This document shows, one piece after another, positions 41,923-45,041 of a stretch of 64,000 nt of DNA. The position numbers and the translations under genes were made by a program. The stretch's first letter is position 1. Each line of letters starts with the position of its first letter. A model generated the notes under the pieces. The model was not told where the DNA came from. It did no database searches and saw only the letters and a program-made list of their open reading frames with translations. Source of the stretch: Caballeronia sp. NK8 (GTDB lineage: Bacteria; Pseudomonadota; Gammaproteobacteria; Burkholderiales; Burkholderiaceae); NCBI RefSeq assembly GCF_018408855.1, contig NZ_AP024325.1:1116001-1180000 (forward strand), read 5' to 3'.

Positions 41923-43338
41923 CTATGCGCCGATGAGTTCGCGCGCTCGTTCGAGCGCCTCGACGATCGCCGCGACGGTTCGATCCCGCGCGGCTTCGTC
42001 GTTCTGCCGCAGCGCGTAGGAAGGGTGATACGTCGCGACGACGAGCCTGTCGCGATACGGCACGACGCGCCCGACATGCGCCGATAACGTCGCGCGACGG
42101 CCGAACAGCGCCGCGAGCGCGGTCGCGCCGAGCGTGACGATCACGCGCGCGCCGACGTCATGCAGTTCCTGTTCGAGCCAGTACGAGCACGCTTCGACTT
42201 CCTGTTGCGCCGGCGTCTTGTGCAGCCGCCGCTTGCCGCGCGGCTCCCACTTGAAATGCTTCACCGCGTTGGTCAGATACACCTGCTCGCGCGGCACGCC
42301 AGCCTGTCGCATGGCGTCGTCGAGCAATTGCCCCGCCGCGCCGACGAACGGCTCGCCCTTCAGATCCTCCTGATCGCCGGGCTGTTCGCCGAGCAGCATG
42401 ATGCGGGCATCCGCCGGACCCGCGCCACGCACCGCCTGCGTCGCGTTGCGCCACAGATCGCAGCGGCGGCAGGTGTCGAGTGACGTGGGGGCGTCGCGTT
42501 CGGGCTGGGCCTCGTCCGCTTCCACCTGCACCGCCTTGCCGCCGAGCGCGCCGACGCTCTTCGCCTGCGCGACGCGCCGCGCCCCGCCGCGCGCATCGCT
42601 GACGAGCTTCGGAATCAGCGCGCCTTCCGGCAGCCCCTTCCAGAAACGCACCGGCATGTGTTGTTCGAGCGCGGATTCGTTCAGCCGCGCCGGGTTGAAG
42701 ATGCTGCGGTAATAGGTCATCCAGAGCGCTTCGGCGGCGTCGGGCGTATCGACCGCGTGTTCCGATGCGAGCGCGCGGCGGCGCTCCAGTTTCAGGCGCG
42801 CGCCGTCGAACATCGCCGCGCCATCGGGCGTCGCGATCAGCCAGGTCGAGCGTCCCATGCGCGCCGCGAAATGGTCCGCGCCCCAGGCGAGCACGTCGTG
42901 ATCGGGCTCGTACCACGCGACATACTCGGGCGCGCCGAGCGAGGCGTCGCGCTGGCGAAAGCGCACGTACGCGATCATGTCGTGCTGCGCGCGTCGCACC
43001 GCCTTGGCCATTTTGTAGAGGCGCGCGCCGTCTTCATCGGCGGCCGATGCAACCGCGCGATCGCCCCGCGACCAGCGCCACAGCACGCGATAGAGAAAGC
43101 CCCAGCGGCGCGCGTCGCGAAAATGCGCGGCGTCTTTCAGCAGCGATGCGAGTTCCCGCGATACGCGGATTTGCGGCGCTTCCGCCACCTTCGCCGATGG
43201 CGCGGCTTCATCGAACAAGGCGGGCTCGACCTGCGACGTGCGCCAGTCGACCGATTCGGGCGCGAGTCCTTGCGCGAGCGCGTCGAGCGCGGCGGCGCGC
43301 CAGGCGTCGAAATCGTCGTCGATGGCGATGAGGTGCAT
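41923..43338 (-). CDS. UdgX-family uracil-DNA glycosylase fused to DUF4130
   Basis: A 471-residue protein. The N-terminal 250 residues match the DUF4130 type found beside radical SAM repair proteins. The C-terminal domain is a family-4-like uracil-DNA glycosylase with GEQPGDQED, then the UdgX signature loop KRRLHK (KRRIH in the mycobacterial enzyme) and HPSYALR. In UdgX the loop His forms a covalent bond with the uracil site in DNA, giving suicide repair. The start overlaps the radical SAM stop as TGATG, so both are in one operon, preceded by a LexA box. No symbol is assigned. Confidence 0.92.
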   Translation of the reverse strand: MHLIAIDDDFDAWRAAALDALAQGLAPESVDWRTSQVEPALFDEAAPSAKVAEAPQIRVSRELASLLKDAAHFRDARRWGFLYRVLWRWSRGDRAVASAADEDGARLYKMAKAVRRAQHDMIAYVRFRQRDASLGAPEYVAWYEPDHDVLAWGADHFAARMGRSTWLIATPDGAAMFDGARLKLERRRALASEHAVDTPDAAEALWMTYYRSIFNPARLNESALEQHMPVRFWKGLPEGALIPKLVSDARGGARRVAQAKSVGALGGKAVQVEADEAQPERDAPTSLDTCRRCDLWRNATQAVRGAGPADARIMLLGEQPGDQEDLKGEPFVGAAGQLLDDAMRQAGVPREQVYLTNAVKHFKWEPRGKRRLHKTPAQQEVEACSYWLEQELHDVGARVIVTLGATALAALFGRRATLSAHVGRVVPYRDRLVVATYHPSYALRQNDEAARDRTVAAIVEALERARELIGA

Positions 43339-44549
43339 CAGAGGAGCGACAGCTGCACCGGCTCCGTCGCGAGCGCGCGCCGCAGATTGTCCGACGGCGC
43401 TTCGGACAGCGGCGGCCGATAATCCGCCACGACGACGAACGGCTTCACCTTGTCCATGCTGCAGCGCAGCCGCACGAGATCCTGATAACGCACGCGCCGC
43501 GCGCGCCGCAATTCGACAATGCGCTTGGCGTTGCGCATGCCGATGCCCGGCACACGCGCGATCGTGCGCGCGGGCGCGACGTTCAGATCGACCGGAAAGC
43601 GGTCCCGATTCGCGAGCGCCCAGGCGAGTTTCGGATCGACGTCGAGCGGCAGATTGCCGGCATCGCCGAGCAGTTCCGACGCAGCGAAACCGTAGCCGCG
43701 CATCAGAAAATCCGCCTGATACAGGCGATGTTCGCGAAGGAGCGGCGGCGCTTTCGACGGCACGCCCGAGGGGCTGTCGGGAATCGGGCTGAAGGCCGAG
43801 TAATAGACACGCTTCAGCTGATACGAACCGTAGAGCGTTTCAGCGGTGCCGAGGATGGTGCGGTCGTCGGTTTCATCGGCGCCGACGATCATCTGCGTGC
43901 TCTGCCCCGCCGGCGCGAATTTCGGCGCGCGCGGCTCCGCTTCGGATTCCTCGCGCGCGACCCGGATGTTGCCCATCGCCAGCTTGATCGTGCGGCCGCT
44001 TTTTTCCGGCGCGAGACGTTCGAGGCTGATTTCCGTCGGCAATTCTATGTTCACGCTCAGACGGTCGGCGTAGCGGCCAGCCTGCGCGACGAGACCGGGA
44101 TCGGCATCGGGAATCGTCTTCAGATGGATATAGCCGCGAAACTGGTGCTTTTCGCGCAGCAATTTCGCGACGAGAACGAGCTGTTCCATCGTGTAGTTCG
44201 ACGAACGAATCACGCCGGAACTGAGAAACAGGCCGTCGATGTAATTGCGGCGATAAAAATCCAGCGTGAGGTTCACGACTTCCTCGGGCGTGAAGCGGGC
44301 GCGCGGCACGTTGCTGGAGCGGCGGTTGATGCAGTAACGGCAGTCGTAGAGACAAAAGTTCGTCAAAAGAATCTTGAGCAGCGAGACGCACCGGCCGTCG
44401 GGCGTGAAACTGTGGCAGATGCCCGAACCGGTGCTGGCGCCAAGGCCGTCGATGCCGCGCGACTCGCGTTTCGGCGAGCCGCCGCTCGCGCATGACGCGT
44501 CGTACTTGGCGGCGTCGGCGAGGATTTCGAGCTTTTCGGAGAGATCCAT
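43338..44549 (-). CDS. radical SAM DNA repair/modification protein, UdgX partner
   Basis: A 403-residue radical SAM protein. The cluster motif is C-x3-C-x2-C in NFCLYDCRYCINRR, followed by glycine-rich SAM-binding segments (FLSSGVIRSS). The C-terminus holds a helix-hairpin-helix (VPGIGMRNAKRIVELR) fit for DNA binding. The family is the radical SAM protein that travels with DUF4130/UdgX, spore-photoproduct-lyase-like in layout. The reaction is unknown; a DNA lesion is the likely substrate. A LexA box ends 12 bases before its ATG, making it SOS-inducible. Confidence 0.9.
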   Translation of the reverse strand: MDLSEKLEILADAAKYDASCASGGSPKRESRGIDGLGASTGSGICHSFTPDGRCVSLLKILLTNFCLYDCRYCINRRSSNVPRARFTPEEVVNLTLDFYRRNYIDGLFLSSGVIRSSNYTMEQLVLVAKLLREKHQFRGYIHLKTIPDADPGLVAQAGRYADRLSVNIELPTEISLERLAPEKSGRTIKLAMGNIRVAREESEAEPRAPKFAPAGQSTQMIVGADETDDRTILGTAETLYGSYQLKRVYYSAFSPIPDSPSGVPSKAPPLLREHRLYQADFLMRGYGFAASELLGDAGNLPLDVDPKLAWALANRDRFPVDLNVAPARTIARVPGIGMRNAKRIVELRRARRVRYQDLVRLRCSMDKVKPFVVVADYRPPLSEAPSDNLRRALATEPVQLSLL

Positions 44550-44560
44550 CTTTACGATTG

Positions 44561-44580
44561 TACTGTATGTTTATACAGTA
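44561..44580. promoter_or_regulatory. LexA (SOS) box
   Basis: TACTGTATGTTTATACAGTA fits CTGT-N8-ACAG with flanking TA on both sides, close to the known LexA consensus of proteobacteria. It lies 11 bases before the radical SAM ATG and overlaps the -10 region of the promoter below, so LexA bound here would block the repair operon until DNA damage. Confidence 0.88.
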
Positions 44581-44603
44581 TTCACGGTGAGTCGCTAAGT
44601 CAA
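44575..44603 (-). promoter_or_regulatory. promoter of the SOS repair operon
   Basis: On the minus strand TTGACT (44603-44598) and TACTGT (44580-44575) are spaced by 17 bases. The -10 is embedded in the LexA box, as expected for an SOS-controlled promoter. Confidence 0.55.
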
Positions 44604-44738
44604 ACGTTTTGTTATTGCGCACACTTCGCGCCTGCCCGGTCGCTCTCCCACGGCATGGCGATTGCGCAGGAAAGACGGCGGCGGCCAGCATTTCGCGAGG
44701 CGGCACGCATCGAGACTATCGATCAACGGGAGGACACC

Positions 44739-45041
44739 ATGAAGAACGCAAAGAGAAGCCTGCTTGTTTCGGCCATGATTCTGAGTCTGTCGGGCGCGGC
44801 GTTCGCGCAGGGCGCAGGCGGTGGAGCAGGCGGCGGTTCAGCGGGCGGCAACGGAGCCGGACAAGGCGGCACCGGCATGAGTACGCCGAACGCCAACGGC
44901 GTGACGGGCTCGACATCGGGCGCATCGGGCGCGAATACGATGGGCTCGTCGCAAAGCAACAAGATGCACAAGAACAAGAAGAGCAGCTCGGGCGGTTCCG
45001 ATTCGGGCACGTCGGGCGGCGGCGCGGCCAAGACGTATTGA
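44739..45041 (+). CDS. glycine/serine-rich small secreted protein
   Basis: A 100-residue protein with a signal peptide (LLVSAMILSLSGAAFAQ), then a low-complexity Gly/Ser/Asn region and a lysine cluster (NKMHKNKKSSS). No family or catalytic motif is visible. GGGAGGACACC precedes the ATG and a strong terminator follows, so this is a real monocistronic gene. Probably a periplasmic or surface protein of unknown role. Confidence 0.68.
   Translation: MKNAKRSLLVSAMILSLSGAAFAQGAGGGAGGGSAGGNGAGQGGTGMSTPNANGVTGSTSGASGANTMGSSQSNKMHKNKKSSSGGSDSGTSGGGAAKTY

Follow-up and report, generated by a model that had tools for sequence, protein, structure and literature searches.

SOS control of a COG1573-COG4277 uracil-DNA glycosylase (UDG) operon has been reported in Verrucomicrobia, Alphaproteobacteria and Bacteroidetes, as a two-gene unit of a UDG and a partner gene under LexA or another S24 repressor (PMC8565304), and an association of DUF4130 with UDGs and with radical SAM proteins of SplB-like type was noted in 2013 (PMC3765255). 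The window analyzed here, a 64-kb stretch of Caballeronia sp. NK8 (64,000 nucleotides, contig NZ_AP024325.1, positions 1,116,001 to 1,180,000), encoded the same three domains in one neighborhood, as a radical SAM protein (rSAM) followed by a DUF4130-UdgX fusion behind a LexA box. It belongs to an already reported kind of SOS operon and is not novel in kind, because both the SOS COG1573-COG4277 operon and the link between DUF4130, radical SAM proteins and UDGs are in print; for the LexA-driven version with a radical SAM partner described in an earlier note on this DNA, novelty was not supported in view of the published operon (PMC8565304). Taken as a whole, the analysis favored with moderate confidence a LexA-repressed repair operon in which rSAM and DUF4130 would be the working pair and UdgX a covalent anchor.

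The locus also differed from the described systems. Compared with the reported COG1573-COG4277 operon, it lies in a betaproteobacterium and carries CTGT-N8-ACAG. COG4277 is taken here to be equal to TIGR03916, and Caulobacter vibrioides matched TIGR03914, TIGR03915 and TIGR03916 in a profile search. The Mycobacterium smegmatis UdgX structures are of a stand-alone chain, whereas UdgX is fused to DUF4130 here. The 2013 proposal was a prediction from genomic context ('might modify thymines'), its passages on this association holding neither residue-level nor LexA-box analysis (PMC3765255). A 2012 LexA-regulon study listed splB, along with two hypothetical genes, for betaproteobacteria, the operon not being mentioned in that part of the study (PMC3323433), and a UDGX gene was already published in Caballeronia arationis (PMC10776899). 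Searches of open-licence literature found no paper joining UdgX and radical SAM, and returned PMC3765255 as the one match for DUF4130, TIGR03915 or TIGR03916.

The operon and its promoter region comprised the following features (window positions):

44598-44603 (-): possible -35 hexamer TTGACT, 17 nucleotides from TACTGT (from the sequence)
44575-44580 (-): possible -10 hexamer TACTGT, overlapping the LexA box (from the sequence)
44563-44578: LexA (SOS) box CTGTATGTTTATACAG, 13 nucleotides upstream of the rSAM start codon
43338-44549 (-): rSAM gene, 403 amino acids (open reading frame call, NCBIfam TIGR03916, Pfam Radical_SAM)
44388-44492 (-): rSAM stretch with the additional cysteines C20, C45 and C54 and with His46, invariant in 53/53 aligned sequences
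44331-44354 (-): rSAM CX3CX2C cluster motif, C66/C70/C73, invariant in 53/53 aligned sequences
43500-43592 (-): rSAM helix-hairpin-helix-like segment, residues 320-350 (PF12836, 26.0 bits)
41923-43338 (-): DUF4130-UdgX fusion gene, 471 amino acids (open reading frame call, NCBIfam and Pfam)
42625-43323 (-): DUF4130 / TIGR03915 domain, fusion residues 6-238 (NCBIfam, Pfam and alignments)
41950-42618 (-): UdgX domain, fusion residues 241-463
42220-42234 (-): UdgX R-loop KRRLH, including the cross-linking histidine H373 (H109 of M. smegmatis UdgX)

Both open reading frames of the two-gene operon proposed in the earlier note were found where it had placed them, and scored above the curated NCBIfam cut-offs: 544 bits for rSAM against TIGR03916 (rSAM_link_UDG, cut-off 343.5), and 205.7 and 248.1 bits for the fusion against TIGR03915 and TIGR03914 (cut-offs 112.25 and 189.95). 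The rSAM stop and the fusion start overlapped as TGATG, the genes sharing one base. Pfam detected Radical_SAM, DUF4130 and UDG, as well as a helix-hairpin-helix below threshold. In near relatives, NCBI names the rSAM counterpart 'putative DNA modification/repair radical SAM protein' and that of the fusion 'UdgX family uracil-DNA binding protein'.

The LexA box within the genus and across lineages

The LexA box, claimed at 44561-44580, proved to be an exact CTGT-N8-ACAG at 44563-44578, of the type found before the lexA and imuA genes of the same genome. It was the sole exact match in the window, among 11 matches with at most one mismatch, a number close to chance (9.8 expected). Across the 9.2-Mb host genome, whose nearest named relatives are Caballeronia, CTGTAYNNNNRTACAG occurred at 17 places compared with 0 for the reversed pattern; these included the promoters of lexA (TIGR00498, 219.5 bits) and imuA (NF033429), and others lay near two genes bearing an IMS domain. 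Because of this genome-wide excess and its presence before lexA and imuA, the box type was assigned as the LexA box of this organism. The overlap of box and promoter stood in part: TTGACT, 17 nucleotides from TACTGT, is a plausible promoter overlapping the box, but a consensus promoter scan called none at this pair.

Conservation of the box in relatives, on which the claim of LexA control had been made to depend, was observed in the genus and in wider samples. Among the 61 genomes searched, 37 belonged to the genus and 26 of these bore the rSAM gene; the box was kept in 25 of the 26, the exception (G025) having its rSAM gene in pieces. When the 25 promoters were aligned on the box, its ten outer positions (CTGTA/TACAG) were invariant (2.0 bits), whereas the flanks averaged 0.2-0.5 bits on the upstream side and about 0.7-0.8 bits on the downstream side; two of the 25 were identical as far as printed, and the promoters are not fully independent. 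The operon is probably under LexA (SOS) control.

The survey was widened to samples of the class (274 genomes), order (300) and phylum (398), in which rSAM exceeded its cut-off in 7, 18 and 84 genomes, respectively. These yielded 94 loci, 90 of which were placed by the first script. Outside the class of the window, GTTC-N7-GTTC or its complement was found within 150 nucleotides of the gene-start anchor in 54/54 loci and CTGT-N8-ACAG in none, while inside the class an exact CTGT-N8-ACAG was found in 22/36 and GTTC-N7-GTTC in none. Shuffled controls gave means of 0.35 and 0.08, and 150-nucleotide downstream windows 3/650 and 1/431. The four loci left out by the script for want of its motif (L106, L107, L120, L124) were added later, bringing the same-class count to 22/40; they had neither box, their best CTGT-N8-ACAG within 150 nucleotides having three mismatches, and the L120 gene was broken. 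Half of the same-class exceptions (7/14) were one mismatch away from CTGT-N8-ACAG, 36-51 nucleotides before the anchor, and four of these carried CTGTACAAAAAACCAG and belonged to one family (f185), the lexA promoter of one such genome holding CTGTATATAATCCCAG. GTTC-N7-GTTC and CTGT-N8-ACAG are the published LexA boxes of alphaproteobacteria and of beta- and gammaproteobacteria, respectively (PMC3323433), and the 54 genomes from outside the class are presumably alphaproteobacteria. The box type thus tracked the LexA box of the lineage, which argues that SOS control was kept while LexA specificity changed.

Named genomes, taken as the best 80 of 594 confirmed stretches and leaning towards near relatives, displayed a comparable distribution. 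The box was present in 36/39 alphaproteobacteria, in 12/16 betaproteobacteria (3 more being one mismatch away) and in 10/18 gammaproteobacteria outside Xanthomonadales (8 more one mismatch away), lying off its usual place in one beta- and one gammaproteobacterial locus (L217 and L231). Either proteobacterial box was found in 0/3 Verrucomicrobia of this set, one of which (L267) had TGTTC-N4-GAACA, which we take to be the Verrucomicrobia motif. SOS control appears from these promoters to be widespread, retained through shifts of LexA specificity and absent from some lineages. Chance occurrence of the box was ruled out by the genome-wide count against the reversed pattern, the lineage counts and the promoter conservation.

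Two families displayed other sites. The operon of family f197 (L196-L201) was preceded by GWACGAWCGTAC-like sites; in genome G423 of this family, GTACGAACGTAC preceded an S24 LexA/UmuD-like gene and umuD-umuC-like genes, and a variant form preceded the rSAM operon. A non-canonical LexA box is possible for GTACGAACGTAC. The lexA assignment was below the TIGR00498 cut-off (99.1 against 110.95), and the pattern search gave 0-3 matches per genome and strand against 0-2 for the reversed control, which is not above chance and leaves the positions alone informative. In family f38 (L154, L174, L177), a conserved palindrome, TCTCATCCAATGAGA, stood before the operon start in place of a LexA box, and was not found before lexA there.

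Pairing of rSAM with DUF4130 and residue loss in orphan fusions

Across the 274 genomes of the class sample, the seven in which rSAM exceeded its cut-off were also the seven in which DUF4130 did; UdgX did so in three, one of which (G079) had neither of the other two. By the DUF4130 profile, a DUF4130 gene followed rSAM in 90/93 class, order and phylum loci (the misses being L155, L172 and L121, a sub-threshold match that is not a true rSAM) and in 78/80 named loci, where both misses had 140 and 691 nucleotides of contig left. UdgX was found in 62 of these 90 and 55 of these 78 rSAM-DUF4130 loci, and cannot be the core of the system because it was absent from the remaining 28/90 and 23/78. UdgX gave no hit in 51 loci that had DUF4130, and the DUF4130 frame was closed by a stop in 47 of them and ran off the stretch in 4; where UdgX was found, it was fused to DUF4130 except in L257 (a separate frame) and L112 (a wrong-frame false hit). 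This distribution suggests DUF4130 as the near-obligate partner of rSAM, and UdgX as an optional third domain. The earlier pairing of rSAM with UdgX accordingly stood for the adjacency of the genes, but the near-obligate partnership was with DUF4130. We know of no reaction assigned to DUF4130.

The UdgX domain of the window was 47-49% identical to the M. smegmatis UdgX structures. The R-loop earlier described as intact, with its trapping histidine, was present as KRRLH together with motif A (GEQPG, residues 317-321), and R371 and H373 are the equivalents of R107 and H109, which have been called the UdgX signature (PMC10359453). Both residues were kept in 143 of the 147 UdgX hits scanned (in 147 loci, a few of them overlapping), the other four being two cut-off sequences, the wrong-frame L112 and L185. 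The latter (genome G953) was an rSAM-linked fusion with a degenerate UdgX, reading AGQPG and without the histidine. UdgX is known to cross-link uracil DNA rather than turning over (PMC10359453), and covalent uracil trapping may be expected of the window fusion.

A second DUF4130-UdgX fusion was found in the same genome (G000:C2:310306-311802; L101 6304-7803(-)), 48% identical to the first, with a LexA box of its own (C2:311826-311841; L101 7827-7842) and no adjoining rSAM. In a genus sample of 41 genomes, 24 orthologues of this orphan were read, leaving aside a broken match in G025 (L309) and a fragment in G017. All 24 had the LexA box and GEQPG, and the cross-linking histidine was kept in 18; of the other six, three had Gln in its place, two Pro and one Leu.

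The orphans had lost a set of DUF4130 residues otherwise nearly invariant. Among 56 rSAM-linked copies (the wrong-frame L112 having been dropped from the residue counts), R116 was found in 55 and H119, A123, N215, R218 and E238 in all 56. Among the 24 orphans, R116, H119, N215 and E238 were found in none and A123 and R218 in two each, while Y83, R88, D101, R126, F127, W142, E144 and R160 were retained in 24/24. Five further orphans of the genus displayed the same six-residue loss, with the box in 5/5. Three orphans of another genus were without R116, H119, R218 and E238 but kept A123 and N215, with the box in 3/3 (that of L316 was detected under the second search rule but not under the first). 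Eleven rSAM-linked copies, some of them from the earlier sets, kept all six residues, and one genome (G015) had the orphan and no TIGR03916 match. Loss of these residues where rSAM does not adjoin nominates them as an rSAM-dependent site of DUF4130; in the simplest reading of the alignments, they would serve rSAM as a docking face or as part of a joint active site. A lineage-following box, an optional UdgX with kept histidine and an orphan with an eroded face were not met in the open-licence literature, the searches not having been aimed at the orphan.

A third UdgX of the genome, also with KRRLH, was a stand-alone one (L102 3874-4497(+); G000:C2:974858-975457), with no CTGT-N8-ACAG in its 8-kb stretch.

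Proposed mechanism and alternative explanations

The rSAM model (AlphaFold; predicted local distance difference test (pLDDT) 85.7, predicted template modeling score (pTM) 0.84) retrieved lipoyl synthase, HydE, MqnE, biotin synthase and HydG at the top of the 50 fold matches shown. The lipoyl synthase, HydE and biotin synthase matches were at 11-18% identity, with the C-terminal helix-hairpin-helix-like part outside the alignment, and the likeness is one of fold, with no shared substrate implied. That part scored slightly below the Pfam cut-off (27 bits) and gave weak matches to ComEA/RuvA helix-hairpin-helix profiles; DNA binding through it is likely. A sequence search of solved structures gave weak matches only, to the helix-hairpin-helix part and the cluster loop of rSAM, and none for DUF4130 at E-values up to 1. 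The model of the fusion (pLDDT 88.6, pTM 0.57) gave a fold list filled by UdgX and its kin. From their invariance, C20, C45 and C54 probably bind a second, N-terminal iron-sulfur cluster.

In the reading favored here, LexA would sit on the promoter until DNA damage clears it, and rSAM and the fusion would then be made together. The rSAM, with its helix-hairpin-helix-like tail, CX3CX2C cluster and putative second cluster, would act jointly with DUF4130 on a DNA lesion, the face formed by R116/H119/A123 and N215/R218/E238 serving rSAM by docking or through a shared active site. UdgX would find and excise uracil and bond the abasic sugar through His373; the bonded UdgX could thereby shield the abasic site and tether the rSAM-DUF4130 pair to DNA. 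UdgX, mainly studied in isolation as a cross-linking enzyme, would be recast as an anchor that this SOS enzyme pair may or may not carry, and the DUF4130 residue list, together with natural UdgX copies devoid of the histidine, makes the function of this widespread pair directly testable.

A more specific version would make rSAM and DUF4130 a two-part radical enzyme acting on the abasic site or close to it, such as by releasing or restoring the UdgX-bonded sugar, with UdgX as covalent anchor and the N-terminal cluster playing the part that the second cluster has in lipoyl synthase, where it is a sulfur source. It is a long shot; if true, the orphan LexA-driven copies would be natural variants that lack the radical step and that, in some species, lack the covalent bond as well.

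Several observations weigh against the favored reading of a LexA-repressed pair with a UdgX anchor. The orphans form few lineages, and their pattern of loss reflects few events rather than 24. The C20/C45/C54 region was poorly modeled, L155 and L172 have rSAM and no detected DUF4130, and UdgX is missing from many paired loci. SOS control is moreover not universal, because the box was absent from Xanthomonadales (0/4 in the named set), from family f38 (no LexA box before the operon in 3/3, its lexA promoter carrying another box) and from L047 and L110, whose genomes have lexA. In favor of the reading, the box was also absent from three genomes (G568, G598, G670) that had no LexA over cut-off.

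One alternative makes UdgX the key activity, in an SOS base-excision clean-up of what SOS polymerases leave behind, whether uracil or misincorporated nucleotides. The UdgX motifs were intact, imuA of this genome has a LexA box of the same type, and protection against ribonucleotides misincorporated by SOS polymerases was proposed for the Bacteroidetes operon (PMC8565304), but rSAM and DUF4130 stayed paired in the loci from which UdgX was absent (28/90 and 23/78), and UdgX cross-links instead of turning over (PMC10359453), so that this explanation is considered unlikely. Little weight is likewise given to direct reversal, in which an SplB-like rSAM would split a pyrimidine lesion in place, with DUF4130 aiding binding and UdgX ancillary. 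The rSAM partners of DUF4130 were termed SplB-like (PMC3765255) and alpha- and betaproteobacteria have splB among their predicted LexA targets (PMC3323433); however, no NCBIfam model other than TIGR03916 matched rSAM at E-values up to 0.01, its three additional N-terminal cysteines are invariant, and a photoproduct lyase was not among the 50 fold matches shown, which does not exclude one. An SOS-induced DNA-modification or anti-phage module acting on foreign or uracil-containing DNA is highly improbable: TIGR03916 is named 'putative DNA modification/repair', UdgX is able to trap uracil DNA (PMC10359453) and a relative of rSAM occurred in 157 of 72,556 plasmid records, but 141 of those 157 plasmids were typed as non-mobilizable and LexA control was conserved.

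Additional loci and rejected origins

A defence system and a phage origin were tried and rejected, and both results also count against the anti-phage alternative. Neither protein matched a described defence system (0 PADLOC-DB families), and, regarding phage origin, 10 phage records matched rSAM by tblastn. In the one region read, from a record titled Acinetobacter phage MD-2021a (L202, CAKLQH020000003.1), glyS/glyQ adjoin the operon, and it looks like a bacterial contig.

Beside the LexA box of the window, a divergent small glycine-rich open reading frame (44655-45041(+), 128 amino acids) had no Pfam match. Proteins starting with MCYSAQI lay beside two boxes of the genome (L032 and L045) and looked SRAP-like by eye, the L032 piece being without a Pfam match. 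LexA-boxed loci with ImuB-like genes were found apart from the imuA locus (L035), namely L044, L045 and L105; the IMS domain was found in L044 and L045, and L105 was judged by an N-terminus identical to that of L044. LexA-type boxes also lay beside a DUF5131 gene (L031) and a DUF2471 gene (L042), which are possible SOS genes.

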